Shown here: in pieces, positions 33,093-63,733 of the stretch
Layout of the letters: every line of letters begins with the position of its first letter
Numbering within the stretch: position 1 is the first letter of the stretch
Assembly: GCA_032622095.1 (NCBI GenBank)
Contig: CP136065.1
Location: 241,593,530 to 241,657,529, forward strand
Length of the DNA: 64,000 nt
Direction of reading: 5' to 3'
Source of the DNA: Siphonodentalium dalli
Lineage: Eukaryota; Mollusca; Scaphopoda; Gadilida; Siphonodentaliidae
Translations under genes and position numbers: made by a program
The notes under the pieces: model-generated
Seen by the model: only the letters and a program-made list of their open reading frames with translations
Database searches by the model: none
Told to the model about the DNA's origin: nothing

Positions 33093-33492
33093 TTAACCCT
33101 TTACCCAACAAACCGGCCAAAAACGGCCAAATAAAGCTGCAACAGCCTAAATTATCTTGGGTCTGTCTCAATAAAACCATACAAATATAGATAGCATTGG
33201 AACCGGTTCATTGACCACATTGTGATGGTTACAGTTATACCCTGTGCCAATGCATTCTCTTATATATGCGAGTCGACCATAGGTCGCCTCGCATATAGAA
33301 GAGAATGCATTGGCCTAAACAAAATCTTTTTTAAACACTTTTTACCATTTTTTCTTACATTCTTTAACAATTTTATAATTTTTAATGTGTTAAGCCAATG
33401 CATTCTCTTATATATGCGAGGCGACCTATGGTCGAATCGCATATATAAGAGAATGCATTGGCACAGGGCCGTTCTGTTGGGTAAAGGGTTAA
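33093..33492 (+). mobile_element. Twin-hairpin TTAA MITE, copy 1 (in the gag leader)
   Basis: TTAA at 33093-33096 and 33489-33492, with outer termini CCCTTTACCCAACA and TGTTGGGTAAAGGG. About 150 bp of left arm (CCGGCCAAAAACGGCC, TCTGTCTCAATAAAACCAT) leads to hairpin 1 (33247-33313), an 80-bp AT spacer, hairpin 2 (33403-33470) and a short right end. Each hairpin arm runs from CCAATGCATTCTC to TATATATGCGAG, with a CGACC-ATA-GGTCG tip. Hairpin 2 is the reverse complement of hairpin 1. It lies between the retrotransposon primer-binding site and gag. Confidence 0.9.
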
Positions 33493-33546
33493 CCGAACGT
33501 TCAATTCGGTTGTTATTATGTTGTTTCCTGACTCTTTATGACATAT

Positions 33547-33557
33547 CGCCGTCGCCA
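33547..33557 (-). promoter_or_regulatory. Primer-binding site of the Ty3/gypsy element
   Basis: Minus-strand TGGCGACGGCG begins two bases inside the 5' LTR. TGG plus seven or eight more bases would pair with a tRNA 3' end of the type ...GTCGCCA. A serine tRNA is possible, but this is inferred from memory of tRNA ends. Confidence 0.6.
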
Positions 33558-33559
33558 GA

Positions 33560-33696
33560 TGTGATGTATTTATAAGGGTTATCGTTGATTAATATATAAT
33601 GGAGCACATTTTATGATATATTCTATTAATCCGTATACATGAAGAGACCAACATAATTCGTACATAATATGCGTAATTCGCATTGCACACATGACA
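33560..33696 (-). repeat. 5' LTR of the Ty3/gypsy element
   Basis: Pairs with 26028-26163. Ends are TGTGATG and TGACA (plus strand). Differences between the two LTRs, substitutions and small indels across roughly 136 bp, indicate an old insertion. Confidence 0.88.
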
Positions 33697-33839
33697 ATAT
33701 ACCGGTATATACAGTGCGGGCAACCAACGAGTATGGATACAGCAACATTGTGATCGATCAGTTTAATTAGTGAGTGTTGACAGTGATCTTTCTCCCAATC
33801 GTCACCAAACTTCAAATGGATCTTCTGGGTGACCACTAG

Positions 33840-34600
33840 ATGTGAGTCATCGAACATTGCCGCCAGTAGCCATTTTGGCTTTTACTCTTTGCATGATAAA
33901 ATCCTGCGCCATATCCTACAGGCCACATCACTCATCTGATTGTCACAAAATACTTCATAAGGATATTTTGGGTGACCCTAGATGGGAGACATACAACTTT
34001 TCCAAATTTCTTAAAAAACATGGCCACTAGCGGCAATTTTAATTGGATTTCACATTTGAATCCAACAGCACACCCTGCATTTACTGGAGAACATGCATGT
34101 TTTAAAGTTTACAGGTATGTTCAGGATCACATCTAGATTGGAGCTGTCGAAATTGAACGATATTCAATCAAACACATGGTTGCCGACAGTCATCTTGGAT
34201 TTTCTTTACCAAATACCTCGGGATTCCCTATGCTGCCAACATTTTCTTTCCAATTGATCAAACATCATATCACTCTTCGCTTGACCTATGGTATTACTTA
34301 AACATTTAAACTTTCCGCATTCCTTATCGATGTAATGACTGTAATGTCTGACATTATCCCCTCTCGGATTTCTCATTTTAATCCATTGACACATTCTACA
34401 GCGCAGAATTGTTGGAGTAATTTTTTGAAATTTTACAGGCGTGTGTGATATCGCCTTTAGATAGAGGATATCGAATTCGAACAATTTTCAATGAAAAATA
34501 TGACCGCCGGAAGCCATCTTGGATTTTACTCTTTGCATGACTATATCCATAGATACGCCCTATACATCACACCGATAATCCAATCGGCAATACACTTCAT
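33840..34600 (+). repeat. Degenerate relatives of the GGCCGCCAGCAGCCATCTTGG unit
   Basis: Several units in tandem, each with a .GCC.CCAGTAGCCATTTTGG- or GCC.TCTTGGATTTTACTCTT-like block, CTTTGCATGA.TA.ATCC and GATATTTTGGGTGACC.CTAGAT. They are more diverged than at 11,580-12,300, and terminal repeats were not found. Confidence 0.5.
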
Positions 34601-36182
34601 ACGGATTTTTAGGGTGACCTCTAGATTTGTACTATCATTGTGTTAAAAACATGGACAACACTGTAAGTCATCTATATATTCTAATTACATGAACAATATT
34701 GTAACGATCTTGGGCAATGCCATAACATTGTGTTTAATATAAACGGATTGGCAGAAGCAATCATGCAAGGAATAATTTTATGAGGTAACGCATAATTAAA
34801 CATTTACTTCATAAATTCGTGAGATGGGTTAGCACTCCCGTATGGAGCCTCACACCGACCTAAGTAGATTACAGTCAACGGTGCATTGTTCGCTCTGTTT
34901 GGGGTTCCATAAAGGGTTAATCGCTTTGGAATAGTTTCAAGATGAGGAATCACGCGATTCTAAAGCTAAAATAAAAATTATTTTGAAAAATAAAAAAACG
35001 TGGTAATATCGTATTAAGGCCTATATGACTCAGTAACATGCAGTATGGTGGATCCGTGGGAGAAAAACAAATAGAAGGTGAATTGTGAAATTTCTGGTAT
35101 AAACATCCTGTCGATTTGGATCTTGCAAGCTAGACAGAGCCCGTGGTTACCATGGTAACCGTTGGAAAACATGGGAACCAGACTTAGCCAAAGCAGCGTC
35201 GAAAGAGCAAAAACCAGGCTACGTATTTTGATGTGGAATGCTTCAGATTGATAACAAAGAATGAAGGGCAAGGGCAGCGGAGGTTCTTTTCGAACTTGAC
35301 ATGCTATCCACAAAAAAAAAAAAAAAAAATTTCATACGTTGAAAATCTATACAATAAAGACCACAATGTTGTCATCTACACCGCCCTACTGATATCCTAC
35401 GTCTCTCAAATAAAAATAAATACGTCATTAGATTCGAGTACATGCGTTTATACGCAATAATTGGCGACCATGTGTTAAATTGCTTACGATGAGCGCTATG
35501 TGGATCAAAACATGATAGGTAATCGATTCATGGACCATGTTTGAGACAATCTGCCATTTGATGAGCACGCTAAACACGTCATGGCTGAACATTACGCCCG
35601 TCTTCGTCGTCGATAATTGTAAAATGTTCAAATTATACGGACTGCACCACTCGGCCCTGATTGCACCACTCGGACCTGATTGCTGAGCACTTCAGAATGA
35701 CAAACGCGACATTGTTATTGTCCTTTCATAAGCTTGATTTCAAAGATGGAACAAAGCCGTGTTTATTTTGGTTGTGGTGCGATCTCGTAATTGGCGCCAT
35801 CAACTGGGAAATTGGTCAACCGATTTAAATGGGGATTGCTATGCAACTCTTCGGGGCCAAAAACAGGTTTATAACAAAACACTCATAACATTGTTATTGA
35901 TAGACTACTTTAATCTGCCGTTCTTCGACGGTTTCAGAGAATTAAGATATCCAGATTGTCTTTAGACGTAAATATATATCAACAAGACGGGAGTTATTTC
36001 ATAAATACGACCGACCTATATCGTTAAATTTCAATTCACTTATATCATTGCCATTTTGGACCCGTTTTCGGACTTATGAAAGTCATCCATTTCAGAAGTA
36101 AGACACCTTGTCTTACAATGTATATGGTCATTAAAATAGGAACTTTCAGTTTATAGGACTCATTTTGTCAGGCTCAAATATT
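34601..36182. other. No gene seen
   Basis: AT-rich DNA. A short palindrome GGTTACCATGGTAACC lies near 35,146-35,161 and a poly-A tract near 35,312-35,329. Open frames (35,014-35,313, 35,233-35,460 and 35,759-35,965) have no recognisable features. Confidence 0.35.
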
Positions 36183-36760
36183 TGATTCAGGCCTCTAACA
36201 TACATGAGGGTACAACCCCCTTCGTTACCCCTTATGATTGAGGCCTCTAACATGCATGAGGGTACAACCCCCTTCGTTACCCCTTATGATTGAGGCCTCT
36301 AATATACATGAGTGTATTACCCCGCTTCCTTACCCCGTATGATTGAGGCCTCTAACATACATGGTGGTACAACCCCCTTCATTAACCATTATGATTCAGG
36401 CCTCTGATATACATGAGGATATACCCCTTCATTACCCCATATGGCTGAAGCCTCTAACATACATGATGGTACAACCCCGTTATGATTCAGGCCTCTAATA
36501 TACATGAGGGTATAACCCCCTTCATTACCCCTTATGATGTATGCCTTTATATATAACATACATGGTGGTACAACCCCCTTCATTACCCATTATGATTCAC
36601 GACTTTGATACACATGAGAGTACAACTCCCTTCCTTATACCCCTTATGATTTAGGCCTCTAAGATACACCAAGGTACAACTCCATCCCTTATCCCTTATG
36701 ATTCAGGCATCCAATATACATGAGGGTACAACTCATTCCTTTCCTTACCCCATGGATTCC
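36183..36760 (+). repeat. 52-bp minisatellite
   Basis: About eleven degenerate units containing GGCCTCTAACATACATGAGG, GTACAACCCCCTTC and TACCCCTTATGATT. The first two units are exactly 52 bp apart (36,191 and 36,243). Later units drift in length and sequence. Confidence 0.85.
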
Positions 36761-37013
36761 GGAATCCGGCTTTAAACAAAAAGACATGGAATCGATGATC
36801 GAGTTTACGAATTTAATAACAATGAATTATTATTTATTTGGGAGAAAAACAACAATGTAGGCAATAACGGGATATTATTCTTCCTAATATCTAATGTAGT
36901 TCACGGACCACGTGAGACATTCGGCGAGATCTCCATCCGCCATCATTGGCCGGCTAACATATACATAGTCCCCAAACTAGTTACAATTATTACGGTGGTA
37001 TACTTAAGAAACG

Positions 37014-37157
37014 GATGTTCATTTGCTTGCGTTCCATATATATATATAGAGTATGGATGCAAGTTACTCTGACATGTTGTGTGGAACGCCACACATAAAA
37101 AATGTCGGACCAACTTGCATCCATACTCTATGGAATGCAACAAAATCAACATCCATT
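37014..37157. repeat. Inverted repeat (foldback)
   Basis: Arms of about 60 bp: GGATGTTCATTTGCTTGCGT, then AGAGTATGGATGCAAGTT, and CGACAT/ATGTC at the centre, matched by AACTTGCATCCATACTCTA, TGGAATGCAACAAAATC and AACATCC. The left arm has an extra TA-dinucleotide run. It ends about 35 bp from the next twin-hairpin MITE. Confidence 0.7.
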
Positions 37158-37192
37158 ACTTATATCACCACTCAACCAAGTCAACTGGTTGA

Positions 37193-37592
37193 TTAACCCT
37201 TTACCCAACAAACCGGCCACAACCGGCCAAATAAAGCTTCAACAGCCTAAAATATCTTCGGTCTGTCTCAATAGAACCATACAAATATGGATATAATTGG
37301 AACCGGCTCCTTGACCACATTGTGATAGTTACAGTTATGCCATGTGCCAATGCATTCTCTTATATATGCGAGTCGATCATAGGTCGCCTCGCATATATAA
37401 GAGAATGCATTGGCCTAAAAAAATCTTTTTTTAACACTTTTTACCATTTTTTCTTACATTCTTTAACAATTTTATAATTTTAAATGTGTTAAGCCAATGC
37501 ATTCTCTTATATATGCGAGGCGACCTATGGTCGACTCGCATATATAAGAGAATGCATTGGCACAGGGCCCTTCTGTTTGGGTAAAGGGTTAA
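37193..37592 (+). mobile_element. Twin-hairpin TTAA MITE, copy 2
   Basis: TTAA 37193-37196 and 37589-37592, 400 bp, the same length as copy 1. Both hairpins (37347-37414 and 37495-37562) are intact apart from a base or two. It is almost collinear with copy 1 through the left arm and the AT spacer. Confidence 0.9.
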
Positions 37593-37860
37593 AAGAGCAT
37601 TAAGCGCCCATGTCCAACGTTATTCTCGTAGCTCGTTGCAAGTTGCGTCCACACACAAATGGATGAAAGTTGAGGTCAGCGCGCGACGTCATGTGACGTA
37701 AATTCGACCAACCAACGTCCTTGTATTCATGTTCCACAACGCGAATTCATGTGTGAGTGTAACTATAGTGATCTGTATAGTGATATTTACAGTGTTAATA
37801 TCTATGTAGGCATCTTGTGACGAACATGAAGTAAAACTACAGAATTCTTGAATTTCACTA

Positions 37861-38276
37861 TCAATGGGGCTGAAATGGTCGTTGTTACCCCCCTTTCGTT
37901 CAGTTGGGTACCCAGCTTTTTAAAACTTTCAGTTGGGTACCCAGCTTTTATAAAATTTACAGTTGGGTACCCAGCTTTATGAGCAGTCAATCTGCAGTAC
38001 CTATGTCCTATGCATACAATTCTTCTACGCTATTATTTTAAGCATCGTGACGAATAGACATCATAATTCATATGTAAACAAGAATTCACACATTTACCAG
38101 GTTCATTTCGCAATCAACTGAGGGCAATCACTAATTAAATCAAGCTCTGTTTTAGATTTCATAAAGCTGGGTACCCAAATGTAAATTTCACAAAAGCTGG
38201 GTACCCAACTGAAGATAAAAAAAGCTGGGTACCCAACTGAACAAAAGGGTGTGACAGTGACCATTTCAGCATCAAT
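37861..38276. mobile_element. Foldback element with tandem repeats in both arms
   Basis: The left arm starts TCAATGGGGCTGAAATGGTC and carries three units of CAGTTGGGTACCCAGCTTT (37,901-37,979). The right arm carries three inverted units AAAGCTGGGTACCCAACTG (38,162-38,240) and ends GTGACCATTTCAGC.TCAA. A unique middle of about 180 bp separates them. Arms built of short tandem repeats resemble Drosophila FB-type foldback elements in organisation only. Confidence 0.7.
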
Positions 38277-38358
38277 GCGATGTAGTTGGAATCTGGCGTA
38301 TACGATAGTGGGAATCCGGCTCCAAAATGGGGCTTGTATAGGCCTACACAGGTATTTG

Positions 38359-38436
38359 GCACAATATACCCCACTACCCCAAAGACATATATGTAAGTCT
38401 TATATATATGTCTTTGTGGTGGTGGGGTATATTGTG
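38359..38436. repeat. Perfect-type hairpin
   Basis: Arms of about 34 bp: GCACAATATACCCCACTACC and CCAAAGACATATAT, matched by ATATATGTCTTTGTGG and TGGTGGGGTATATTGTGC, with a loop of about ten bases. Confidence 0.75.
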
Positions 38437-38579
38437 CTATATATATGTGTTTGTATATATAGCCTCATACATGAAAGACAAGTTATTATATCTCGCTTTT
38501 GCCATATACTGAGGATAAACATAGGTTGATAAGTACCGTACATGTGCATGACATTGTTATGTACGAAACTTATATACGT

Positions 38580-39097
38580 TTAAAGGCACGTGCGGCGTTC
38601 GTTGCAGAAATATTCATATTTGTTCAAATCGCCATCAACAGAAGGAATATAAAAATATATATAGTTGTGTTCATATGCCAAACATAATCAGCGCTTAAAT
38701 AGTATATTGTCGTCAAGACGTACGATGGTGTACGTAAACAAGAGCCAGCTCGTGTTACAGAAGTTGTGGTGCTTCCGTTTACAATTATATTGGTTAATCA
38801 CACACAAATAATATAAACGCTCTTTATTATTTCCATATCAGGAAAACAGCAACAAATAACGCTCTTTATGTTTACCATATCCGGATCTAAACAAAAGCAA
38901 GGTAACGTAAAGTTGTTTTGCTTTTGTTTACATAACAAAGGGGGGAAATGACAATAACATAGTGTTTATGCATTATTTCTGATTGGTATAAGAATAAAGT
39001 CGGTCTATATTTTACTATTCTTTCTGTTTATGGCGGTTTTTGAAGGAAGTGAATATTATAACAGCATACCCACCGTCAACGCCGCCCGTATCTGTAA
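38580..39097 (+). mobile_element. TTAA-bounded MITE, AGGTACGGGCGG family, copy 2
   Basis: TTAA 38580-38583 at the left; at the right it has decayed to GTAA (39094-39097). Termini are AGGCACGTGCGGCG and CGCCGCCCGTATCT. It is highly similar to 6655-7135 throughout, plus an extra segment (about 38,750-38,790, GTGTTACAGAAGTTGTGG). Confidence 0.78.
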
Positions 39098-39197
39098 GAG
39101 TGGTAGGATTTCAGTTTCCATTTTCTACATAAACGCTCTTTATCACCACCATGTTACGATACATTTAATGTCGACGCTCTTTAATGTTACAATAAGT

Positions 39198-41569: not shown

Positions 41570-41924
41570 TTAAATGGGTACTGTACACTAAATCTGGCCA
41601 TTTTTGGGACCATCTCCTTTTATACTCAACATAATAATATGTAACAAATGAATGAATTTGAGCCATGGATGAGTGCAAAATACACTGATTTATCATATGA
41701 ACGATAAACACAACGTGGTAGTTATAATGAAAATGAATTTATGACTCCAGTCATAAATTCATTTTCATTATAATTACCATGTTGTTTGTGTCGTTCATAG
41801 AGCACATGAGTGTATTTTGCACTCATCCATGGCTCAAATTCATTCATTTGTTGCATATATCCTGTTGAGTATAAAAGGAGATGGTCTCATAAATGGCCGG
41901 ATTTAGTGTACAGTCCCCCTTTAA
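41570..41924 (+). mobile_element. TTAA-bounded palindromic MITE, AGGGGTACTGTACACT family, compact copy
   Basis: TTAA 41570-41573 and 41921-41924, 355 bp. Termini are ATGGGTACTGTACACTAAAT and ATTTAGTGTACAGTCCCCCT. Nearly the whole element is one palindrome: GGCCATTTTTGGGACCATCT, GAATTTGAGCCATGGATGAG and ATTATAATGAAAATGAATTT read back on the right. It shows the undisturbed form of 8706-9744 without the LINE. Confidence 0.85.
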
Positions 41925-42010
41925 AGTCTGATATAGAAGAGTAAGAGTGCGTTCATAAACTCGCAAATTTACCAGACATTCTTTTGTATTCAATTCGGTT
42001 CAGCAAGCTA

Positions 42011-42473
42011 CCCTTTACCCAACAAAACGGCAAAAAACGCCCAAATAAAGCTTCAACAGCCTAAAATATCTTCGGTCTGTCTCAATAACACCATACAAAT
42101 ATGGATATCATTGGAACCCGTTCATTGACCACATTGTGATGGTTACAGTTATGCCCTGTGCCAATGCATTCTCTTATATATGGGAGTCGACCATAGGTCG
42201 CCTCGCATATATAAGAGAATGCATTGGCCTAAAAATATTCTTTTTTTAACACTTTTTACCATTTTTTCTTACATTCTTTAACAATTTTAGAATTTTTTCT
42301 TACATTTTTTTTAACAATTTTTATAACATTTTTCTACATTCTTTGACAATTTTATCATTTTTAATATGTGTTAAGTCAATGCATTCTCTTATATATGCGA
42401 GGCGACCTATGGTCGACTCGCATATATAGGAGAATGCATTGGCACAGGGCCGTTCTGTTGGGTAAAGGGTTAA
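42011..42473 (+). mobile_element. Twin-hairpin MITE, copy 3, with a 19-bp direct repeat
   Basis: Termini CCCTTTACCCAACA and TGTTGGGTAAAGGG as usual, but TTAA is present only on the right (42470-42473). The element is flanked by the 19-bp direct repeat AATTCGGTTCAGCAAGCTA (41992-42010 and 42473-42491). Hairpins lie near 42161-42228 and 42374-42443. The spacer between them is longer, with three TTTTTCTTACATT-type repeats, as in the copy at 59580-60042. Confidence 0.85.
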
Positions 42474-43416: not shown

Positions 43417-43433
43417 GGCAATGTGTTAGTAAC

Positions 43434-43842: not shown

Positions 43843-44341
43843 TTGACGTTCATATTCTGGCACCATATGGTTTGCTATGAGAATATGTCTGCAAGAAATG
43901 CCGTATAAATTGTCCAGTCTATGAACGTACCCGTAAACCAGTATTGCCCCTGCCGATTTCACTAGCTGATTTACGTCGAAAGAAACTTGGAATAGGCAAG
44001 CTCGGTTGGCCATAAAAGTAAATAATTATATCCCGCTGGCGGAATATTGTCTTAACTTAAATTAACATGGCATTGAATTATTGAACATTCGCTATGCGTT
44101 TCCTTATAGATGTACAAAACCCGATACCAAACCATCTGCACGGAATGACCTTGCACATAATTATGCGGTCACAAAGATGACTCACTCAGGTTAATTCCGT
44201 TGAAATAAACAACACACGTCACAAGCACGTGAAACTGAAAACTGGCTAATAATAGGTTATATACCAGTGTCACTCGTACGCGAATCTAAACATGTCTTAG
44301 TATGCACGTGTTCACCCTTACATGACTGGAGCTCCTGAAAT
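43843..44341. other. No gene seen
   Basis: Unique-looking AT-rich DNA without recognisable exons or element termini, on the 3' side of the kinase gene. Confidence 0.35.
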
Positions 44342-44515
44342 TTTGCGAAAACACTGTGGCAATGCATTCTCTTATATATGCGAGTCTGCCCACAGGGAGG
44401 CTCAAATATACACGATAATACATTGGCCTAACAATATTTACCTTTACCGCGTAAGGCAGTACATTCTCTCCCAAATGTGAGACTCACATACATAAGAGAC
44501 TGCACTGGCACATGA
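44342..44515 (+). mobile_element. Diverged relic of the twin-hairpin element
   Basis: CAATGCATTCTCTTATATAT, then GCGAGTCTGCC, a degraded return arm, CATTGGCCTAACA, and a second degraded hairpin ending ATAAGAGACTGCACTGGCAC. Both hairpins are recognisable but heavily substituted. The CCCTTTACCC termini are absent. Confidence 0.65.
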
Positions 44516-44704
44516 TTTTAATGCTGCACCAGAGTAGCTCCCGCAATGGAAGGCTTAGACAACAGGCTTAATATCGTAGTAATAGAAGTGGTGGGGATAT
44601 ACCCATATCCACAGAAACATTGCGCAAAGAGTCGCCATGTAGATAGCTATACGTAAGATTGGGCGTAGTTTAGCCTGATTGTACCACTTGGGCGGGGCGG
44701 TTAG

Positions 44705-45811
44705 TCATAGTGACAGTAACCACTCGGATATCCTCCTATCACGCTGCCGCTTATCCATGTGAGTCTCCACCCCTAAATGTTTAAGTCTGGAATTAAGGTC
44801 ATCAATGACTATAACGTCGTTATTAATAGAGTTACTCCCCTCTTCGAAAAATTCATCGAAATCTTCGTCACTGTCCGTCGTGCTACGTCTCCTGACAGTC
44901 CATCGGTCGTCTAAATATTTATGAATCTCCTTCACGCATACCCGTTTTTCTGATTTAATATCAAGAGATTTCCTGAAAAATTTCATGAGTCTTGGTGTGA
45001 ATTTTCGCCACTGTGACGGTGTCCGTGACGTTCTGCGACGTTGCCACAAAACGAACTCATTGAAATACATATCACCAATGTCAGCGTTTTCCCAAGGAAA
45101 ATTACCGGTCATCATGCAAAATAGCAAAACGCCGAACGCCCAAACATCTCCCTTTGTTGAAATAGTCACGGGTTCGTTTCGGACAGCTTCGCAAATTTCC
45201 GGAGGTGTATATGGAATGCTTCCGCTGGTTTTCCGGATTACCGCCCCTTCTTTCCGAGTCATACCGAAGTCCATTATTTTCACTCGGCTAAGATCGGGTT
45301 CGAATATGAGAACATTCTCTGGTTTGAGATCTCGATGAACCAGATTCTTGCTGTGCATGAACTGTAAGGCTGCGGCTACTTGTCTGATGACAGTTTTCGC
45401 CGATTTTTCGTCCATTCCGGTTTCGGACGGAATTACTTCAAACAAATCACCCATAGGACTATATTCTTGCGCGAAAACATATGAGTCACGAGTCTCGAAG
45501 GCCACATTGTAAGTATCCAATATATTCGTGTGAACAGAAAGAAAGTATGTGTAGTTGAATTCTCGTTTGAATTCTCGGAGTTTGGTCGAGGACTTTGGTA
45601 GAATTTTTAATGCCACCTTTGTTGCCGTTTCTTTACATTGCGCCAGAACAACCTTTCCGTAAGTGCCACGCCCAAGTTCCCTCAGCACACTGTAATGCTC
45701 TCTGATATTCAACAGCAGGAGATTGTCCGACGTACTCGTGCGGGGCGATCTTGGTTTTGTTGACTCCGTGTCATTCTTGGTCTTCTCCTTCTCCATGTTA
45801 GACCAGAACAT
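44705..45811 (-). CDS. SBK1-like: SBK-like serine/threonine protein kinase (complete coding region)
   Basis: A 368-residue protein kinase of the SH3-binding-kinase (SBK) type, predicted to phosphorylate Ser/Thr. Its substrates are unknown. Visible: glycine loop LGRGTYG (46-52), lysine in VALK (K69), HRDLKPEN with catalytic D161 and N166, DFG at 181-183, PPE at 203-205 and DVWAFGVLLF (222-231). All catalytic residues are present, so it should be active. The N-terminus (1-35) is charged and Ser/Thr-rich. After the kinase fold comes an acidic tract (DSDEDFDEFFEEG) and a basic tail ending EWLLSL. SBK character rests on LREFKREF, FAQEYSPMGDLF and FMHSKNLVHRDLKPENVLIF. No intron interrupts the frame. 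A TTCTTGTTCCAG acceptor about 22 bp before the ATG suggests a 5'-UTR intron. It is not next to any related gene. Confidence 0.92.
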   Translation of the reverse strand: MFWSNMEKEKTKNDTESTKPRSPRTSTSDNLLLLNIREHYSVLRELGRGTYGKVVLAQCKETATKVALKILPKSSTKLREFKREFNYTYFLSVHTNILDTYNVAFETRDSYVFAQEYSPMGDLFEVIPSETGMDEKSAKTVIRQVAAALQFMHSKNLVHRDLKPENVLIFEPDLSRVKIMDFGMTRKEGAVIRKTSGSIPYTPPEICEAVRNEPVTISTKGDVWAFGVLLFCMMTGNFPWENADIGDMYFNEFVLWQRRRTSRTPSQWRKFTPRLMKFFRKSLDIKSEKRVCVKEIHKYLDDRWTVRRRSTTDSDEDFDEFFEEGSNSINNDVIVIDDLNSRLKHLGVETHMDKRQRDRRISEWLLSL

Positions 45812-45833
45812 TAGTAAACCGTTATTGGACTAT

Positions 45834-47588: not shown

Positions 47589-48369
47589 TTAAAGTGATGT
47601 GAAACACTCCGGTATGGTGCTCAATTATAAATAGAGAATAATCTTGCTCAAAGTAGTTAGTTTTACGAATATTAATCCAAATTGACACCGCCATTCTGAT
47701 ATATTAATGAAATTCAATGACTCTTAATGGCGAAATTATTTGTGTTCGTTTATCGCCAATAGTTGCGTCCCGAATCTGGATGTAAATATTTACTATTGAG
47801 CGTAGTTCAGACGATGTTTTCTATGAAATGGTGTGGTCTATTTCTTTGCAATTTTCGGCGATGATAGTGGAATTCTACATTCCCCACTGAAATAAGTCCA
47901 TAATATGTGACCCGCCATATCAAATCCAGTCGTAAGTCGGGATTTTTTTTTACCCTGTACCAATGCATTCTCTTATATATGCGAGTCGACCATAGGTCGC
48001 CTCGCATATATAAGAGAATGCATTGGCCTAACATTTTTTTACAACTTTAATAATTTGTTCTTGTATTCTTTAACAATTTTATAATTTCACCCATACAGAG
48101 CCCCAGACAAACATGAGCAGACGACACTCTTCTATATGCTTCTATATATGTGTGGGGCTCCCTGCAGGGTAATGGATGTTTTTTATTTTATGTCCTAAAA
48201 ATTGTAAGAAACATTTATTTAAAAAAAATGATAAAAAATTGTTAGTCCAATGCATTCTCTTATATATGCGAGGCGACCTATGGTCGACTCGCATATATAA
48301 GAGAATGCATTGGCACGGGGTAAAAAAATATGTTTCACTCACTCGAACAAGTCTACAATATGTCTTTAA
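47589..48369 (-). mobile_element. TTAA-bounded MITE, AGACATATTATG family, inverted, with nested hairpin element
   Basis: TTAA 47589-47592 and 48366-48369. It begins AGTGATGTGAAACACTCCGG and ends GAACAAGTCTACAATATGTC, in opposite orientation to 47088-47455, which lies only 134 bp away. Between about 47,951 and 48,328 it is interrupted by a hairpin-module element. Confidence 0.75.
47951..48328. mobile_element. Hairpin-module element with TTTTTTTACCC termini
   Basis: Ends read TTTTTTTTACCCTGTACC and GGCACGGGGTAAAAAAATA, so the termini are inverted TTTTTTTACCCYG and lack the TTAA-CCCTTTACCCAACA of the standard element. It carries both hairpins (47962-48029 and 48247-48315). The middle (GAGCCCCAGACAAACATGAG, GTGGGGCTCCCTGCAGGGTA) is shared, inverted, with 56211-56497. 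Confidence 0.75.
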
Positions 48370-49071: not shown

Positions 49072-49472
49072 TTAACCCTTTACCCAAACAGAAGGGCCCT
49101 GTGCCAATGCATTCTCTTATATATGCGAGTCGACCATAGGTCGCCTCGCACATATAAGAGAATGCATTGGCTTAACACATTAAAAATTATAAAATTGTTA
49201 AAGAATGTAAGAAAAAATGGTAAAAAGTGTTAAAAAAAGATTTTTTTTAGGCCAATGCATTCTCTTATATATGCGAGGCGACCTATGGTCGACTCGCATA
49301 TATAAGAGAATGCATTGGCACAGGGCATAACTGTAACTATCACAATGTGGTCAAGGAGCCGGTTCCAATGATATCCATATTTGTATGGTTCTATTGAGAC
49401 AGACCGAAGATATTTTAGGCTGTTGCAGCTTTATTTGGCCGGTTTTGGCCGGTTTGTTGGGTAAAGGGTTAA
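49072..49472 (-). mobile_element. Twin-hairpin TTAA MITE, copy 4 (minus orientation)
   Basis: TTAA 49072-49075 and 49469-49472, 401 bp. The long arm (GGCCGGTTTTGGCCGG side) is on the right, so the element is reversed relative to copies 1-3. Because the two hairpins are mutual reverse complements, the hairpin order read on the plus strand is unchanged. Hairpins lie near 49103-49171 and 49251-49319. Confidence 0.9.
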
Positions 49473-51074: not shown

Positions 51075-51239
51075 CATTATACAATGTTGTGTACAGTATG
51101 AGTTTTTCTTGTACTCGTCCAGGTTGTGGTGAAAAGTCATATTGGACTCGACACTGGCGTGTCTCGTCCAATATGACTTTTCACCACAACCTGGACTCGT
51201 ACAAGAAAAACACATACTGTACACAACATTGTATAATAA
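51075..51239. repeat. Long near-perfect hairpin
   Basis: Arms of about 75 bp: ATTATACAATGTTGTGTACA, then TTCTTGTACTCGTCCAGG, TTGTGGTGAAAAGTCATATT and GGACTCGACAC, with the complementary right arm and a loop of only about four bases. A few mismatches occur (for example GACTCG/CGTCC). There is no terminal TTAA or TA duplication that I can define. Confidence 0.8.
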
Positions 51240-54327: not shown

Positions 54328-54703
54328 TTAACCCTTTTCCCAACAAACCGGCCAAAAACGCCCAAATAAAGCTTCAACAGCCTAAAATATCTTGGGTCTG
54401 TCTCAATAAAACCATACAAATATGGATATCATTGGAACCGGTTCATTGACCACATTGTGATGGTTACTGTTATGCCCTGTGTCAATGCATTCCCTTATAT
54501 ATGCGAGTCGACCATAGGTCGCCTCGCATATATAAGAGAATGCATTGGCCTAAAAAAAAAATTTGTTTAACACTTTTTACCATTTTTTCTTACATGTGTG
54601 TTAAGCCCTCGCATTCTCTTATATATGCGAGGCGACCTATGGTCGACTCGCATATATAAGAGAATGCATTGGCACAGGGCCGTTCTGTTGGGTAAAGGGT
54701 TAA
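54328..54703 (+). mobile_element. Twin-hairpin TTAA MITE, copy 5
   Basis: TTAA 54328-54331 and 54700-54703, 376 bp. The spacer between hairpins is about 30 bp shorter (the TTCTTTAACAATTTTATAAT block is missing). Hairpin 1 has a TGTCAATGCATTCCC arm variant and hairpin 2 a CCCTCGCATTCTC one. Confidence 0.88.
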
Positions 54704-55665: not shown

Positions 55666-55668
55666 TTG

Positions 55669-56066
55669 TTAATCCTTTACCCAACAAACCGGCCAAAAAC
55701 GCCCAAATAAAGCTTCAACCGCCTAAAATATCTTCGGTCTGTCTCAATAGAACCATACAAATATGGATATCATTGGAACCGGCTCATTGACCACATTGTG
55801 ATGGTTACAGTTATGCCCTGTGCCAATGCATTCTCTTATATATGCGAGTCGACCATAGGTCGCCTCGCATATATAAGAGAATGCATTGGCCTAAAAAAAA
55901 TCATTTTTTAACACTTTTTACCATTTTTTCTTACATTCTTTAACAATTTTATAATTTTTAATGTGTTAAGCCAATGCATTCTCTTATATATGCGAGGCGG
56001 CCTATGGTCGACTCGCATATATAAGAGAATGCATTGGCACAGGGCCCTTCTGTTGGGTAAAGTTGA
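55669..56066 (+). mobile_element. Twin-hairpin TTAA MITE, copy 6
   Basis: TTAA 55669-55672 at the left. The right terminus GTTGGGTAAAGTTGAA has lost bases and no longer has a clean TTAA. Both hairpins (55822-55889 and 55971-56038) are intact; the tip of the second reads GGCGGCC rather than GGCGACC. Confidence 0.85.
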
Positions 56067-56210
56067 ACAGTCATGCACCTCTGTCCTTTTGATCATAGGC
56101 CCATTTAGTTACGTCCACGTTATCACTCCAGGCCAAGTGGTCCTGCTGAATTTACCATGATGCGGGTAGGGCAATTTGATGCCGTTACGAAAAAAGTACC
56201 GTTATTTTTT

Positions 56211-56497
56211 TACCCTGTGCCAATGCATTCTCTTATATATGCGAGTCGACCATAGGTCGCCTCGATTATATAAGAGAATGCATTGGCCTAACAATTTTTT
56301 ATAATTTTTTTAAAAATGTTTCTTACAATTTTTAGGACATAAAATAAAAAACATCCATTACCCTGCAGGGAGCCCCACACATATATAGAAGCATATAGAA
56401 GAGTGTCGTCTGCCCATGTTTGTCTGGGGCTCTGTATGGGTGAAATTATAAAATTGTTAAAGAATACAAGAACAAATTATTAAAATTGTAAAAAAAC
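56211..56497. mobile_element. Hairpin-module element, single hairpin, flanked by a 34-bp direct repeat
   Basis: Begins TACCCTGTGCCAATGCATTC, carries hairpin 1 (return arm with CTCGATTATATAAG), then the inverted GCAGGGAGCCCCACAC..CAGACGACACTC-type middle of 47951-48328, and ends TAAAATTGTAAAAAAAC. Hairpin 2 is absent. It is flanked by a 34-bp direct repeat of the host element's end with one mismatch. Confidence 0.72.
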
Positions 56498-56570
56498 TGA
56501 TGCCGTCACGAAAAAAGTACCGTTATTTTTTCTAAAGTTCGTATTTTCGCGGTGTTTGGCTTATCAAAAA

Positions 56571-56694: not shown

Positions 56695-57130
56695 GCTGAT
56701 AACTTCGAGTAAAATAAATGTTTATATATTGTAATACATCTTGTGCTAATTTATCCCACATTATGTGGCTAAACGTTTTTAAAAGTGGCTAACAAAATTG
56801 CACAAGTGGCTAAAAACATGGCTACAAAGAATTTCGGGCCAGGGCGAACACTGAAAACCAGTGTGTGTGTATAAAACATTCAAGAACATATATATTTTTG
56901 AAAAATATAATAATGCCTGACCTGTTTTTTCTAAAACTACACGAATAACCATCTTGAGTATAGTCGATTTTCAACAACTAATACAACCAGTATTAAAAAA
57001 AATTCGCAATAATTATGTTTTTGAATGTTTGACACGCATACTAGCTTTTCCTGGATATGTTCAGATTATCGGAACACCGCGAAAAAGATAAATTAAAAAT
57101 ATATAACGGTACTTTTTGTTAACAGCATCA

Positions 57131-57694
57131 GTTTGCCACAACAGCATCATAGCAATTCAGCAGGACTCAACCGCATCATAGCACATTAGCAGGACCACTT
57201 GTCCAGCGGTGGTTATGCATGCAGATGTGTCAGAAATAATAATCGGATCATTCTCCTAACTAGATCCGGATAATGAGCCGGCGGCATTACGAAATATTCC
57301 TGAATTAATCAATATAGATACTATAATCACAGGAATCATATTCCGGACATGATTTTTGTGTTGATAGAATGGTCACCCGGGAAATAGTTGCATAAAACAG
57401 ATATTTATCTAGACAAATTATCACACTCGAATGTGGTTAACTCAATAAACTGTATTTCCGCTGTTCAAACATGCACGCAGAAGTGTGGAAAACAGCATGG
57501 TATAGGAATAGATAGCATTATGTGGGGAAATATGAAAATATATCAACGACCCTCGTATCCCGGACTGAATGGCAAGCGCGTTGTGTTAATAAATATCACG
57601 GATGCCATATATTCTGCATTACACATTAACGATGCTACTCATCGACTGTCATAATGTATTTAGGATTCACAAATGATTGCACAAATAACATTGA
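57131..57694. other. No gene recognised
   Basis: An open frame at 57,388-57,654 (88 codons, +) has a cysteine-containing stretch (NCISAVQTCTQKCGKQHGIG) but no family I can name and no splice context. Confidence 0.3.
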
Positions 57695-58477
57695 TTTTCC
57701 ATATCATCAAGATACAACAACAACAACAACAACAACATTTCTTCAAAATACGCTTTAGTTATCAGAATCGATTTATTGCAACAAAATAATGCTAACCACT
57801 GTCAACTATGGTATCAAATTTTCCAAAACGTTTTATTTATCAATATTTTGTTGAACAAAATATGGCCCTATTATCACTTAAGTATCACGAAATTTAGCCG
57901 TATTACAACTTGATTTTAGAGTTACCCATCTTCATCCGCAATTTTTTCCTAGACCGTCCGTTTGACCACATGTTGTTGTGCCACAAATAATTGATCATCT
58001 CGAGAAATAACAAGCTTCAAAAATCGATATCTGATCAACTCTGAGCTTTGATGGGTTCCTCGACTCGAATCAAATATTTTTACAGTTACAGTTATGCCCT
58101 GTGCCAATGCATTCTCTTATATATGCGAGTCGACCATAGGTCGCCTCGCATATATAAGAGAATGCATTGGCCTAAAAAAAATCTTTTTTTAACACTTTTT
58201 ACCATTTTTTCTTACATTCTTTAACAATTTTATAATTTTAATGTGTTAAGCCAATGCATTCTCTTATATATGCGAGGCGACCTATGGTCGACTCGCATAT
58301 ATAAGAGAATGCATTGGCACAGGGCCCTTCTGTTGGGTAAAGGGTTAATAGGATAATTACATGTATTATATTTTTATTTTCAGTTTTTACATGTATTATA
58401 TTTTTATTTTCAGTTTTTATCCCCAAAGCCAAAGAAATAGTAATTTAGGAGCGTTAATTCTGATAATGCGTCTTTAA
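57695..58477 (-). mobile_element. TTAA-bounded MITE, GTACTCAAT family, inverted, with nested twin-hairpin copy
   Basis: Right end GCGTTAATTCTGATAATGCG, TCTTTAA (TTAA 58474-58477). The interior CCTCGACTCGAATCAAATAT and CCAAAGCCAAAGAAATAG is the inverse of 40972-41409, and TATCATCAAGATACAAC marks the far end. It contains a (CAA)n microsatellite (57714-57736) and is split by a 5'-truncated twin-hairpin MITE and a short ACATGTATTATATTTTTATT duplication. Confidence 0.72.
58084..58348 (+). mobile_element. Twin-hairpin MITE, copy 7, left-truncated
   Basis: Starts abruptly at ACAGTTATGCCCTGTGCC (the left 130 bp and left terminus are missing) and ends normally with TGTTGGGTAAAGGGTTAA. Both hairpins (58104-58171 and 58252-58319) are intact. 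Truncation without loss of the hairpins suggests breakage at insertion or later deletion. Confidence 0.85.
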
Positions 58478-58917
58478 TATATCTGATGATAATCAACCAT
58501 GCAACTACTCGTGGTATTTCATTGCCCTGATGGGATATGCAGCAGCAAAATGCACTTACACTGTTGTCGGCCCAAGAGTGTTGAAATATATCTATACTAT
58601 AGTAGACGAATTGCCGGAAGATATATATAAGGCAAATTTGCCGGTGTGCGAACGCATCTTAAACTCTTTCTATACTGAATGGATTCTCCATCTCAGTTAT
58701 GGAAGAATACATTGGAATAGTTTATTATTCATTTTGGAGGGTTTTTCAGGGAAAATGAGCAGACGATAGACGTATGGAAATATAATACAAGTAAAACAAA
58801 ATAATGTTCATTGGTGCGAATTGTTCAGAAAATAAATTCAACAAAAAGGTTATTATCTGAAAATTTCCTGTAAGGCAACTACTCTTCAATGAGTATTTAG
58901 TATATATAGAGGATATG
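58478..58917. other. No gene recognised
   Basis: An 80-codon open frame (58,530-58,769, +) with no recognisable domain. Its 3' half is similar in inverse to text near 40,090-40,140. Confidence 0.3.
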
Positions 58918-59046
58918 AAATGAGTGTTTCTCTCATATGATATTTATGAAACGAGTCTAAGAAATTTTCAGTTTTCTCGAGCCTCCGGCGAGAGAAAACT
59001 GAAAATTCGTGACGAGTTTCATAAATATCATATGAGAGAAACACGA
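58918..59046. repeat. Near-perfect hairpin
   Basis: Arms of about 55 bp: GTGTTTCTCTCATATGATAT, TTATGAAACGAGTC and TTTTCAGTTTTCTCG, returning as CGAGAGAAAACTGAAAA, GACGAGTTTCATAA and ATATCATATGAGAGAAACAC, with CCTCCGG at the tip. ACGAATTACATATTCTATTT follows it and recurs at 59,285-59,305. Confidence 0.8.
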
Positions 59047-59579
59047 ATTACATATTCTATTTATCATATGACACCTATAAATTGATTATGATGTCCAAAA
59101 CGCACACAAATCACTAAATAGCTATATGACATCTCGGCAGCAAAAGGTAAATGTGACGTCACTTCATTGCACCGGAAGCCCAATTACACCTGGTGAACTA
59201 GCAGAAATAATATGCACGCGAAGATATAGTGCGCTATTCTGTTCTCAGTTTGTGACATTATATCGTATGTTTATTAGATAAATACGAATTACATATTCTA
59301 TTTATCGTATAACAATGTCCAAAAACTATATATTTCAAGATTATAATTGCGAGAATTTCGGCATCGCGTTGATTCGTGTATTTGACGCGCACGAATTTGA
59401 CCTGCATTTAGTCAGAGATGCGGCTCGGCCCCCGGCTGCCATTCAGCCAATCAGAACACACTTTTTGTCAACAAACCAATCAAAGTATCGGAAGGTGATA
59501 TGAATTAGTAATTGATATGAAATTGATTTATGACATAGTTTCAAACGTAAATAATGATTGAGTCATATGATAAAAAGGG
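59047..59579. other. No gene seen
   Basis: Apart from the repeated ACGAATTACATATTCTATTT word (59,041 and 59,284), no structure was recognised. Confidence 0.35.
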
Positions 59580-60042
59580 TTAACCCTTTACCCAACAAAA
59601 CGGCCAAAAACGCCCAAATAAAGCTTCAACAGATTAAAATATCTTCGGTCTGTCTCAATAACACCATACAAATATGGATATCATTAGAACCGGCTCATTG
59701 ACCACATTGTGATGGTTACAGTTATGCCCTGTGCCAATGCATTCTCTTATATATGCGAGTCGACCATAGGTCGCCTCGCATATATAAGAGAATGCATTGG
59801 CCTAAAAAATTCTCTTTTTTAACACTTTTTACCATTTTTTCTTACATTCTTTAACAATTTTATAATTTTTTCTTACATTTTTTAACAATTTTTATAATAT
59901 TTTTCTACATTCTTTAACAATTTTATCAGTTTTAATATGTTAAGCCAATGCATTCTCTTATATATGCGAGGCGACCTATGGTCGTCTCGCATATATAAGA
60001 GAATGCATTGGCACAGGGCCGTTCTGTTGGGTAAAGGGTTAA
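59580..60042 (+). mobile_element. Twin-hairpin TTAA MITE, copy 8
   Basis: TTAA 59580-59583 and 60039-60042, 463 bp. The spacer is lengthened by repeats of TTTTTCTTACATTTTTTAAC type, matching the copy at 42011-42473. The second hairpin tip is CGACC-TAT-GGTCG followed by T, which restores perfect pairing at the position mismatched in the other copies. Confidence 0.9.
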
Positions 60043-60222
60043 GGCACGACGATGAAGCTCTATATTGACATCTGAACGTGTGTGAGTGTGTGGTGAGACT
60101 GGACGGCCTTTGTTTGGATATCCAACTTTGAACTATAACCTCCCCATCTATCCAGCTTTCCAACTGTAGGAAAAGTTCAACTATATGGTTAGAATATATC
60201 ATGACATGAATCTATACTCTGT

Positions 60223-60596
60223 CTAACGCCCGTAGAGATCATATTCCACCAGTACAAAACCTGGGAACTTTTTTATGTTCTGACCCGTTATGACAGGGAA
60301 CTTTATTGTCATTGAACAAACATGGCAGGGAATATATGGTTAATACGTGTTCCTCAATAATCTACTTCACATTAGGGGGTTGTCCCAGCTCGAGATTACA
60401 TACAGTTCTATGACTTTTGTGAGCCGATATCGCAATAAACATTGAATTAATTACCCAGGAGAAATTCCATAATTGTAAGCGACGCAAAGCAACATAGCCT
60501 CACAAAGTCACTTAAATCGTGCAATTTCGAGTTGTGACCTTCACATATACAGTGAAGTACATTATTAAGGTGGAATATGATCTCCACGGGCGTTAG
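60223..60596. mobile_element. MITE with CTAACGCCCGTAGAGATCAT termini
   Basis: 28-bp terminal inverted repeats: CTAACGCCCGTAGAGATCAT, ATTCCACC on the left; GGTGGAATATGATCTCCACG, GGCGTTAG on the right, with one mismatch. It is 374 bp with no coding capacity. Older copies lie at 1924-2340 and 22,520-22,620; the latter adjoins the 29-bp array. Confidence 0.82.
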
Positions 60597-61099
60597 CCAG
60601 GGCTGAGATTCATGGCATGATCTATTGGTTAGATTGGACAATCAGCGTAAACACCGCGCCACTTGAGCAGAAGAGAAAGTTATAAACTTTTTAAAGTATC
60701 TTTTGGCACACAGAGAAATATCATTTATAACTGCCGCCAAAATTCAGTTCATACCTGATCAAATTGAGAACTAGAAATAATCGGAACCCGATTGAAGTTT
60801 CCAGTTGGAAAAACTCCGAAGTTCCTTGTTTGCGTTGCCAACTTTGCAGGGAAGATACATTGGGCAAAATAAAATAACTATCTGTTCATTGGCAACGAAT
60901 TTTCGTCCTTCTGAAGAACATATCTGAAAACATACTTTCAAAGTAATCCGACTTATGGAAAACTTAACATTCCTTTTAATGACGGAAATAAAACAAACAT
61001 GTTGGAATCAGCCAGGTTCACATCGGAAATAGTGACCACACAGCAACCATCATTTGAATTGGTTTAAATTGAATCTAGATGCATGCCAGCTAAGTGCAT
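60597..61099. other. No gene seen
   Basis: AT-rich DNA with no recognised feature. Confidence 0.35.
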
Positions 61100-61292
61100 G
61101 TGTATTTAATTATATTTCCGTATATTATCACTTCGAATTTGTTATCTTTAGTTTTGGGAGTATTCCTATTTTATTTATCTCTATTAATTTAAACTTTTGT
61201 TGATATTATGTATGATAATATAAATGACTACCTCCAGTTTCACATAATAGAGCGGACGGAATCAATAAAGAAATTGAAATTGAAATTGAGGG
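61100..61292 (+). repeat. Possible LINE 3' UTR with (ATTGAA)n-type tail
   Basis: T-rich DNA ends in GGACGGAATCAATAAAGAAA, then TTGAAATTGAAATTGAG. A gene-poor stretch ending in AATAAAG plus a short tandem tail is how many CR1-like LINE copies terminate. No coding remnant is visible upstream, so this is tentative. Confidence 0.3.
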
Positions 61293-61613
61293 GAAAGAAA
61301 GAGATGCAGAGTTCAGACAATAGATGGGGCAATTTTAACTTACATTTAGTGGTTGCAGAATAAATGCCACTAAGTTTGTTGCAGATTGAAATTCATTAGG
61401 TAACAAAGAAAGACTGGAGAATTATACCATGTTAAAATATTCTCCGCTTTGTCACAAGCCAAAGAAAATAAAAATTACAAAATGTTCTAGTTCAATCGCG
61501 CCATGACCGTAACTTCGTATGAACTAATTGCATTAGAAATTTTGGTTGGAAACTTACAGATGCATTCAGGGTTCCAGGCCATTTTTTTCCCCATTTTATT
61601 TAGGTTCTAATGT

Positions 61614-61890
61614 TTAAATGGGTACACTACAATAAATCTGGCCATTTGCGGGACCATCTCCGTTTATACTCAACAGAATATATGCAAGAAATGAATTAAT
61701 TTGAGCCATGGATTAGTGCAAAAACACCCTTGTGTTCTCTATGAAGGACGCAAACAACACAGTAATTACAATGAAAATGATTTTATGACTGGAGTCATAA
61801 ATTTATTTTCATTATAATTACCATGTTGTTTGCATCGCTCATAGAGTACACCGGTGTATTTTGCACTAATCCATGACTCAAATTAATTCG
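61614..61890 (+). mobile_element. Right-truncated relic of the AGGGGTACTGTACACT palindromic MITE
   Basis: TTAA 61614-61617, left terminus ATGGGTACACTACAATAAAT. The palindrome GGACCATCTCCGTTTATACT through ATTACAATGAAAATGATTTT and back to AATCCATGACTCAAATTAAT is present. The right terminus is missing. Confidence 0.7.
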
Positions 61891-62731
61891 CATATATTCA
61901 ATATTTTTTTTTTATTGGATATCTATGCATTTATTAGAGGGACACCAAACATTATTTTCTTATTTTTTCAATAACAAAATGATGATATTTTTTATATTTC
62001 TAGGTCAATTTTATGTCATATTTGGTTTTCAACATTCTTTTAACAGAACAAAGCAGAAAACAATGTTCAATTAAATGTGTGTTGTTGTTGTTGTTTTTCT
62101 TGATGTTGTTGTAAATGGAGATCTGTAACCCTGAATGCAACTTTAAATCAAATTCAGCATATTTTCTGTCTGAACGTTACAACTGCCGTTGATTGGGGGC
62201 ATGGGCTTTCCAGCTGTTCAAAGAATTGACCATACATAGTTTTGGGGGAGCCATGCACTTCGATATCCCTGTCACCATGTCCCTGCGTGGGTGGGTCTCG
62301 TCCGATGGAAGACCTGAATATAATCTCCGACATGTCTTGAAGAACAGACAATATGCTAATTGAAGCCACTCAACGCAGGCCGACAACAGCTTCATTTTCT
62401 AACGATTTCCGCACATGTTGATTGGAACGAAGTCCTTCGCACGAAAATGAGGCGTCATTACTGCGGAACGAAAGTCATCGCGTGGGCCGCTATCGAAATG
62501 GGAGTTTATAGTGCAGCGAACCCCTTGGCCGAACCACACCTGCTTCCCACAACATACCCTTTTCTATTACTCAATCGACCGATTCCTGTGCTTACTAGTT
62601 CCCAAACACCCAATGATCACAAAAGTGCAACCCTTTTCCCACCATCTACATAAGTGGTGTCATTTGTCATACTATTTCTTTATATATGTATATACTCCTT
62701 ACCCCCCCCCCCGAATTGTAATAGCCCCTTG
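61891..62731. other. No gene confirmed
   Basis: Contains a GTTGTTGTTGTTG run (62,082-62,095), a poly-C tract near 62,703-62,712, and overlapping open frames on both strands (62,154-62,395 minus and 62,360-62,653 plus). The minus frame (GRDPPTQGHGDRDIEVHGSP) is the more protein-like but is not recognised. Confidence 0.3.
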
Positions 62732-62972
62732 TTAACCCTTTGAGTGCCAGGGCCGATATTATCGGCCCTAAACCTACACAATAAGTCTGTTAAAGAATAT
62801 AATAAAATATATTAAAATTGTAAAAAAAAAACAAAACAAAAAACAATGTTAGGCCAATGCATTCTCTTATATATGCGAGGCGACCTATGGTCGACTCGCA
62901 TATATAAGAGAATGCATTGGCACAGGGTATATGGGTTGATACAAAAATCGGACCTGGCACTCAAAGGGTTAA
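62732..62972 (+). mobile_element. TTAA MITE with CCCTTTGAGTGCCAGG termini carrying one hairpin module
   Basis: TTAA 62732-62735 and 62969-62972; termini CCCTTTGAGTGCCAGG.CCGAT and ATCGG.CCTGGCACTCAAAGGG. A single hairpin of the type-2 form (62853-62921) is nearly identical to hairpin 2 of the CCCTTTACCCAACA family, including the flanking GGCACAGGG. Only the first six terminal bases (CCCTTT) are common to both families. Confidence 0.85.
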
Positions 62973-63333
62973 CACGCCTTACGCAAGTCACACTAACACC
63001 TGATGTATCCAAAATACTTTGTTTTATTATATGCTTCCCCATTAGAGAGTGGGAAATTGCCGCAACGTATAAATATCGGATTTAGTGTCTCGATCGACAG
63101 TAAAGATATAATTAGGATATTTCAAAAATGATATCTTCACTGTCGCTTACATCCGGTAAAAATCACATGAACTGCACCTTGCCAAATGACGCAATGACGT
63201 CACCACTTGAATGTGGTTTGCTACCTATCAGCTGATCGGTACCGTGTATGGTTTAATTTGTTGTGCTATTATAAGTGAACATGCTGCACAATTTAACATA
63301 TATAAGCAATAAAAGTAATAATTATCGACATGA

Positions 63334-63733
63334 TTAACCCTTTACACAACAGAAGGGCCCTGTGCCAATGCATTCTCTTATATATGCGAGTCGACCATAG
63401 GTCGCCTCGCATATATAAGAGAATGCATTGGCTTAACACATTAAAAATTATAAAATTGTTAAAGAATGTAAGAAAAAATGGTAAAAAGTGTTAAAAAAAG
63501 ATTTTGTTTAGGCCAATGCATTCTCTTATATATGCGAGGCGACCTATGGTCGACTCGCATATATAAGAGAATGCATTGGCACAGAGCATAACTGTAACTA
63601 TCACAAAGTGGTCAAGGAGCCGGTTCCAACGATATCCATATTTGTATGGTTCTATTGAGACAGACCGAAGATAATTTAGGCTGTTGAAGCTTTATTTGGC
63701 CGGTTTTGGCCGGTTTGTTGGGTAAAGGGTTAA
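63334..63733 (-). mobile_element. Twin-hairpin TTAA MITE, copy 9 (minus orientation)
   Basis: TTAA 63334-63337 and 63730-63733, 400 bp, same orientation as 49072-49472 and very similar to it. Left terminus CCCTTTACACAACA has one change. Hairpins lie near 63365-63432 and 63512-63580. Confidence 0.9.

Follow-up and report, generated by a model that had tools for sequence, protein, structure and literature searches.

The stretch C5:241593530–241657529 (below, the window: the whole 64,000 nucleotides analysed, from a genome of 2.23 Gb in nine contigs) carries nine elements of one non-coding, TTAA-flanked family of miniature inverted-repeat transposable elements (MITEs), here family a, each with two mutually inverted hairpins. 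These twin hairpins are a cassette that family a has in common with at least three other MITE families with unrelated ends, families c and g with TTAA and family b with a 4-bp A/T duplication. A preliminary description of the window had tied the twin hairpins to a single TTAA MITE; this specificity is rejected, as families b, c, and g carry the hairpin behind unrelated ends. The explanation that we prefer, and whose chances as a whole we put at about even, is that the hairpin cassette has passed from one MITE family to another, its pairing being maintained in active sources.

The 27-bp core of the hairpin, TGCGAGTCGACCATAGGTCGCCTCGCA, has 118,241 exact copies in the genome, compared to 0 for the control pattern read backwards; a search of viral and prokaryote contigs gave 0 matches, which says nothing on eukaryotes. 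Reading of 20 regions revealed the hairpin in contexts other than a, and families a, b, and c have one and the same 69-nt consensus for it. Family a has the ends TTAACCCTTTACCCAACA and its inverse (26-bp terminal repeats). Family b starts with GTGACCCGCCATATCAAATCCAGTCG at both ends, and its target duplications are not TTAA, being 4-bp A/T words instead (ATAT, ATTT, AATT). Family c has a different TTAA end, TTAACCCTTTGAGTGCCAGG, and usually one hairpin, while g is an older TTAA family starting with TTAACCCTTCCATGACTGGAGC. The common start of a, c, and g is TTAACCCTT; without the first four bases, no pairwise alignment of the ends of a, b, c, and g exceeds shuffles, the closest pair, the left ends of b and c, being reached by 8 of 200 shuffles. 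The genome contains 69,738 ends of a, 28,043 of b, and 19,416 of c (at most two mismatches), and 30,219 of g (at most three); elements of b are fewer than its ends, because the b end stands on both sides.

At least one full hairpin lies inside 39 of 40 sampled copies of a, 19 of 20 of b, 19 of 20 of c, and 15 of 20 of g, as recounted by BLAST within the element bounds only (at L068, the full hairpin found by BLAST lies outside the element proper). The distance from an end to the start of the hairpin is approximately 45–55 bp in b, c, and g, compared to 153 bp for the left hairpin of a. The 40 copies of a were read from the 69,738 ends, picked among the first 100 listed places; all are on contig 1 and have 0 mismatches across the first 26 bp. 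A recognisable right terminal repeat is present in 38 of them, in a few with one TTAA base changed. Statistics for a refer to 33 copies, after removal of 5 segmental duplicates and of the 2 copies in which no right end was recognised. The sample of c is the first 20 places listed; that of b, 20 listed places, deliberately selected so as to include unusual spacings and single ends; and that of g, 20 places, mostly on contig 1.

Each a element contains two 69-nt hairpins, hairpin 2 being the inverse of hairpin 1. In the typical case, the arms are 33 bp long, the tip has 3 nt, and a single mismatch is conserved, which, owing to the inversion, reads T/C in hairpin 1 and G/A in hairpin 2; single copies have a few extra mismatches or shorter arms. 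The preliminary description had the inversion, the tip, and the mismatch right, and gave the arms as about 31 bp. The hairpin at 33246–33314 folds as DNA at −33.5 kcal/mol, compared to a shuffle mean of −6.79 (z = −12.9; 0 of 200 shuffles as good), and one 2-mer-block shuffle of the window yielded 0 hairpins of such size. An Rfam scan of the window gave no family reaching the gathering score. The window contains 22 hairpins of the cassette type: 18 in the nine a elements, and four in elements outside the first list (at 47.9–48.3, 56.2, and 62.85 kb). The nine a elements, all found where they had been placed and forming a single family approximately 400 bp in length (approximately 463 bp in the two long-spacer copies), are as follows:

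33093–33492, plus strand: full element of 400 bp; hairpins 33246–33314 and 33394–33462
37193–37592, plus strand: full element; hairpins 37346–37414 and 37493–37561
42007–42473, plus strand: long-spacer form; hairpins 42160–42228 and about 42377–42443
49072–49472, minus strand: full element; hairpins 49103–49171 and 49251–49319
54328–54703, plus strand: shortened spacer; hairpins about 54483–54547 and 54611–54667
55669–56066, plus strand: decayed right end; hairpins 55822–55890 and 55970–56038
58084–58348, plus strand: element without the left end; hairpins 58103–58171 and 58250–58318
59580–60042, plus strand: long-spacer form; hairpins 59733–59801 and 59944–60012
63334–63733, minus strand: full element; hairpins 63364–63432 and 63512–63580

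Intact TTAA is seen at the left end of 7 and at the right end of 8 of the nine, so that the TTAA ends reported for most copies stand. The terminal inverted repeat of 33093–33492 has 26-bp arms, 92% complementary, with a CCC start. The copy at 42007–42473, whose start was first given as 42011, has GCTA where the left TTAA is expected; separately, an 18-bp direct repeat, ATTCGGTTCAGCAAGCTA, stands on either side of it, which is unusual for the insertion of a TTAA element.

The remaining elements of interest in the window are the following:

47907–48325, plus strand: family b element, left end GTGACCCGCC at 47907; hairpins 47960–48026 and 48247–48313
56208–56496, plus strand: orphan cassette with one hairpin, 56219–56287; ends other than those of a, b, or c
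62732–62972, minus strand: family c MITE with TTAA on either side; single hairpin, 62853–62921
44311–44558, plus strand: old, decayed, g-like twin-hairpin element, judged by its resemblance to the g consensus; approximate ends; apex close to the CTCCC/GGGAG type
16200–16444, minus strand: old, decayed family g element with a TTAA end at 16444; position of the opposite end approximate

The b element has a GCCCC hairpin between the twin hairpins and is without the right end of family b. The orphan cassette is flanked by two copies, approximately 33 bp each, of GATGCCGTYACGAAAAAAGTACCGTTATTTTTT (56180–56535).

How the hairpin may reach new ends is illustrated by family c. The left arm of c continues without CC at 56 places in the genome, 25 of which were read. 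Eleven of these (L190, L192, L196, L198–L200, L204–L207, L212) are complete copies of a hairpin-less symmetric MITE, c0, starting with TTAACCCTTTCAGTGCCAAGTCCGATTTTTGTATCAACCCATAT; 6 are hairpin-free without a complete end; and 8 were labelled as hairpin-bearing, including L201 (where the label comes from a neighbouring g element) and L211, which also read as c0. The first 44 bp of c and c0 are alike save two bases, 26 of the 44 being already required by the search pattern. Because a hairpin-less element shares the first ~44 bp of c, grafting of the hairpin onto existing ends is likely, and the comparison of c with c0 would suggest the direction from c0 to c. Two single loci are also of note: L111 is a chimera of the hairpins of a and a terminal piece of b, and L094 is a b copy nested in a g hairpin, with ATAT duplicated.

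For a and b, hairpin-less precursors are rejected or made less likely. The left arm of a is followed by a base other than C at 6 places genome-wide, of which 5 bear the hairpin and 1 is truncated. The b end without its T run occurs at 58 places; 6 loci and 4 regions were read, in which L181 is a lone end with no hairpin and the rest are hairpin-bearing, deletion derivatives, or terminal tandem arrays.

The border of the cassette reads TA|CCCTGTGCC in 25 of 29 cases in b, in 12 of 12 in c, and in four other contexts (L020, L030, L112, and the window at 56.2 kb). Elsewhere it is AA (7 of 7 in g) or GG (49 of 50 right ends of a), and the left border of a is TG in 13 and TA in 4 of 18 cases. As for the route, the cassette may have nested itself at TA, and copies may equally have recombined with one another.

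We distinguish private changes, seen in one copy, from shared, source-level variant sites, where at least three copies carry the variant. In the a copies, total change amounts to 0.8% and 0.5% for the two hairpins, 2.6% for the left unique part, and 2.3% for the spacer. Private change in the hairpins (24/4192) is below that in the T-rich spacer (29/2385, p = 0.006) and in the 30-bp right end (13/986, p = 0.019), equals that in the 127-bp left unique part (22/4183, p = 0.88), and does not differ from that in the left part and right end combined (35/5169, p = 0.60); misalignment in T-rich stretches could inflate such contrasts between hairpin and non-hairpin sequence. Thus, the earlier statement that the hairpins are better conserved than the spacer holds, and does not extend to private change relative to the left unique part. 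Variant sites shared by at least three copies are absent from the hairpins of a (0/138), compared to 12/157 in the left and right parts (p = 0.0005), with 4/79 in the spacer; this absence points to the source copies.

Change in b is lower within the hairpins than outside them (1.4% vs. 3.0%, p = 0.0002; p = 0.017 for private changes; 13 of 20 copies). Strong protection or gene conversion after insertion is rejected or at least weakened by the equality of private change in the hairpins and left part of a and by equal decay in g; the lower values relative to the spacer and right end in a, and to the rest in b, count against that rejection. Protection of inserted copies is, therefore, not shown, being none in g and mixed in a and b. 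Of the two options offered earlier, constraint or recent spread, recent spread is supported (0.45% divergence in a), and constraint is supported at the level of sources, not of inserted copies.

Divergence of the hairpin is 8.6% in g, 1.8% in b, 1.5% in c, and 0.45% in a (25, 35, 20, and 68 hairpins, respectively). The consensus of g differs from that of a, b, and c at four positions, which form two exactly compensatory pairs beside the tip, the T/C mismatch being retained. With four random changes, all 32 pairs were of the Watson–Crick type in 382 of 2,000,000 trials, and in 8,509 with G–T allowed. The pairing test on real hairpins used 19 chosen from 84 listed (7 from g and 4 each from a, b, and c; 12 distinct): cells changed on both sides number 16, compared to 7.0 in shuffles (0 of 500 as many), and sliding the partners yields no more than 6. 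The idea that the good pairing results from quasi-palindrome repair is rejected or weakened, as the T/C mismatch is present in both consensuses and g copies have lost pairs. The clearest signs of constraint are the absence of source-level variants and the compensatory change from g.

Insertions and deletions (indels) of at least 3 bp hit hairpin 1 in 11 of the 33 a copies, each with its own breakpoints, and hairpin 2 in 3 (p = 0.02). The left unique part has indels in 9 copies, 7 of them reflecting one subfamily difference and 2 private, so that hairpin 1 is more often damaged than the left part is privately (11/33 vs. 2/33, p = 0.011). Since indels in hairpin 1 are frequent and have independent breakpoints, the hairpins may form in the cell and suffer damage, and yet persist in sources.

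The piggyBac-type nature of the a ends (TTAA, CCC) is supported, as had been proposed, and the genome is rich in matches to the piggyBac transposase domain, at least 128 of them. The preliminary description had also suggested looking for a transposase source sharing the termini of a; 32 transposase loci were read, including several copies of one family, and neither the a ends at TTAA nor the hairpin were found at any of these. Near matches of 14 bases to the a end, with 2 mismatches each, occur in L007 and L012, the latter not after TTAA. At L133, TTAACACGTTGAGTGCCGG upstream of the transposase resembles the ends of c and c0, and is not proven to be its end. Another piggyBac transposase family starts with TTAACCCTTTATCTGC where its copies become alike, and two piggyBac transposase families have, by eye, subterminal palindromes at their ends.

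Taken together, a cassette handed between families would work as follows. Different cut-and-paste transposases would act in trans on the outer ends, those of a, c, and g being served by piggyBac-type enzymes and those of b by another. The cassette would pass between sets of ends either by inserting at a TA inside another element or through recombination or template switching from copy to copy, and a new MITE family would start once existing ends gain it, as c may have done from c0-like ends. The capacity for pairing would be kept in source copies, while inserted copies decay, hairpin 1 often by indels. The hairpin would act as a DNA structure, an extruded hairpin or cruciform, and would probably help sources multiply whichever transposase cuts.

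Several observations weigh against this explanation. The transposase was found for neither a nor b, 32 of at least 128 loci having been read for a. The identity of the a, b, and c hairpins could be recency. The c0 family has spread without the hairpin, which is, therefore, not needed for such TTAA mobility. With shared indels included, the left part (9/33) is similar to hairpin 1 (p = 0.79); indels in the T-rich spacer (16/33) outnumber those in hairpin 1, and hairpin 2 has few (3/33). The g hairpins decay as the rest (8.2% vs. 8.1%, p = 1.0; 15 of 20 copies), and the shared-site test in b is not significant (p = 0.11). Finally, double-changed pairs (6 vs. 4.1, 40 of 500 shuffles) and further pair types (12 vs. 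10.9, 157 of 500) are unexceptional.

Among the alternatives, the least improbable, though still doubtful, is that the hairpin is an idle, neutral passenger, with one twin-hairpin ancestor caught inside several successful MITEs and the identity due to recent shared descent. Families a, b, and c are indeed young (0.45–1.8%), and private decay of the hairpins equals that of the left unique part in a and of the rest in g; such a passenger, however, leaves unaccounted for the lack of shared variants in the a hairpins (0/138 vs. 12/157), the exactly compensatory changes between g and a/b/c, and the retention of the hairpin in four families despite frequent damage to hairpin 1. We consider it unlikely that the hairpins are enlarged subterminal palindromic docking sites, read as double-stranded DNA by a piggyBac-type transposase. 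Such a role is reasonable, because known piggyBac ends carry transposase-bound palindromes: a palindromic 19-bp internal repeat of piggyBac is bound by a CRD dimer (PMC7351741), and piggyBat has subterminal imperfect palindromes (PMC11707139). The position of the hairpin ~45–55 bp from the end in b, c, and g, and the subterminal palindromes of the two transposase families of this genome, agree with it as well. Docking is not the whole story, though, because the same hairpin stands behind b ends with ATAT-like duplications rather than TTAA, and c0 has spread hairpin-free with near-identical TTAA ends; moreover, arms of 33 bp are longer than a 19-bp site, and in a the left hairpin starts 153 bp in from the end.

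Equally unlikely is that the cassette is, or once was, an independent mariner-like transposon with a TA target, nested in MITEs; this concerns the route only and is compatible with a cassette handed between families and kept paired in sources. The TA|CCCTGTGCC border of most b, all c, and the four other contexts, sharp across families with unrelated flanks, is what such a transposon would leave, while the AA border of g, the GG of right and the TG of most left ends of a (TA in just 4 of 18) are not; among the loci read, L030 is the sole candidate for a twin copy that stands free between clean TA duplications, and none is proven. Least of all do we expect the hairpins to act through double-stranded or small RNA, either protecting the element or arising as a by-product: the RNA fold of 33093–33492 stands out from shuffles (z = −21.2), as expected of any such inverted repeat, and the window has no Rfam family at the gathering score.

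Other repeated structures accompany the elements described. A second small hairpin of ~80 bp, with stems GAGCCCCA...TGGGGCTC, is present in the window at 48098–48160 and 56370–56432; it lies in the middle of b, near the end of L112, and in L020, and may also move between contexts. A third repeated hairpin, CAGAATGAGGTCCCCAGAGGGTGAATT with its inverse, is found in several unrelated loci (L098, L118, L121, L181). Further large hairpins of different sequence, with arms of 38–79 bp, are located in the window at 51076–51237, 38346–38450, 41696–41799, 61732–61851, and 37046–37131. At C1:837463–915689 (G000), tandem repeats of ~11.175 kb each contain a hairpin pair, most with a listed a left end; another tandem run, near C1:742234–771350, has a spacing of 14.56 kb. 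The b end is expanded to tandem arrays, mostly of a 32-bp unit, beside the element in L185 (C9:204743833–204745312), L186, and L187. Between the repeats of the window, an uninterrupted protein kinase frame of 374 residues occupies 44705–45829 on the minus strand.

MITEs are usually classified and dated by their ends. The same interior across unrelated ends and target duplications implies that the interior has its own history. If the hairpin does help a MITE multiply under any transposase, it would be a transposase-independent amplification aid, and would bear on how certain MITEs attain copy numbers in the tens of thousands. The distinction of private from shared variants, and of inserted copies from sources, is a simple sequence test usable in other genomes.

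Family a resembles piggyBac-type MITEs in TTAA at both ends, the CCC start, short terminal inverted repeats, lack of coding sequence, and high copy number, but carries a hairpin cassette that also stands behind non-TTAA ends. Galileo and Foldback have long inverted repeats and chimeric copies like the cassette families; they form one P-type family, whereas the cassette families have in common a 69-nt hairpin, and their ends differ in target duplication. The literature, partially covered, yielded no description of the twin-hairpin element, which is weak evidence. Mitochondrial double-hairpin elements and the repetitive hairpin-forming elements of sponges (PMC2800124) likewise are repeated hairpins invading new places, in mitochondrial DNA, whereas the cassette is located on large chromosome-sized contigs inside transposon ends.

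Bacterial REPINs and BIMEs are, like the cassette, inverted short imperfect hairpins making a small, abundant, and possibly mobile unit, and the cassette does consist of such an inverted pair; it differs in residing in a 2.2-Gb eukaryote-sized genome, in its 33-bp arms, and in being enclosed by cut-and-paste MITE ends. A GTAG-type tetranucleotide, as given for REPINs (PMC3733652), does not stand beside the cassette, whose flanks are CCCTGTGCC and mostly CCTAACA. It is possible, if somewhat less probable than the transfer of the cassette between families set out above, that what truly moves and is selected is the hairpin pair itself, as a hairpin parasite of chromosomes that survives its carrier families by moving to new ends, its fold kept by compensatory change; it would then be a eukaryotic counterpart of REPINs. 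In form, REPINs and mitochondrial double-hairpin elements appear to be the closest analogues of the cassette.

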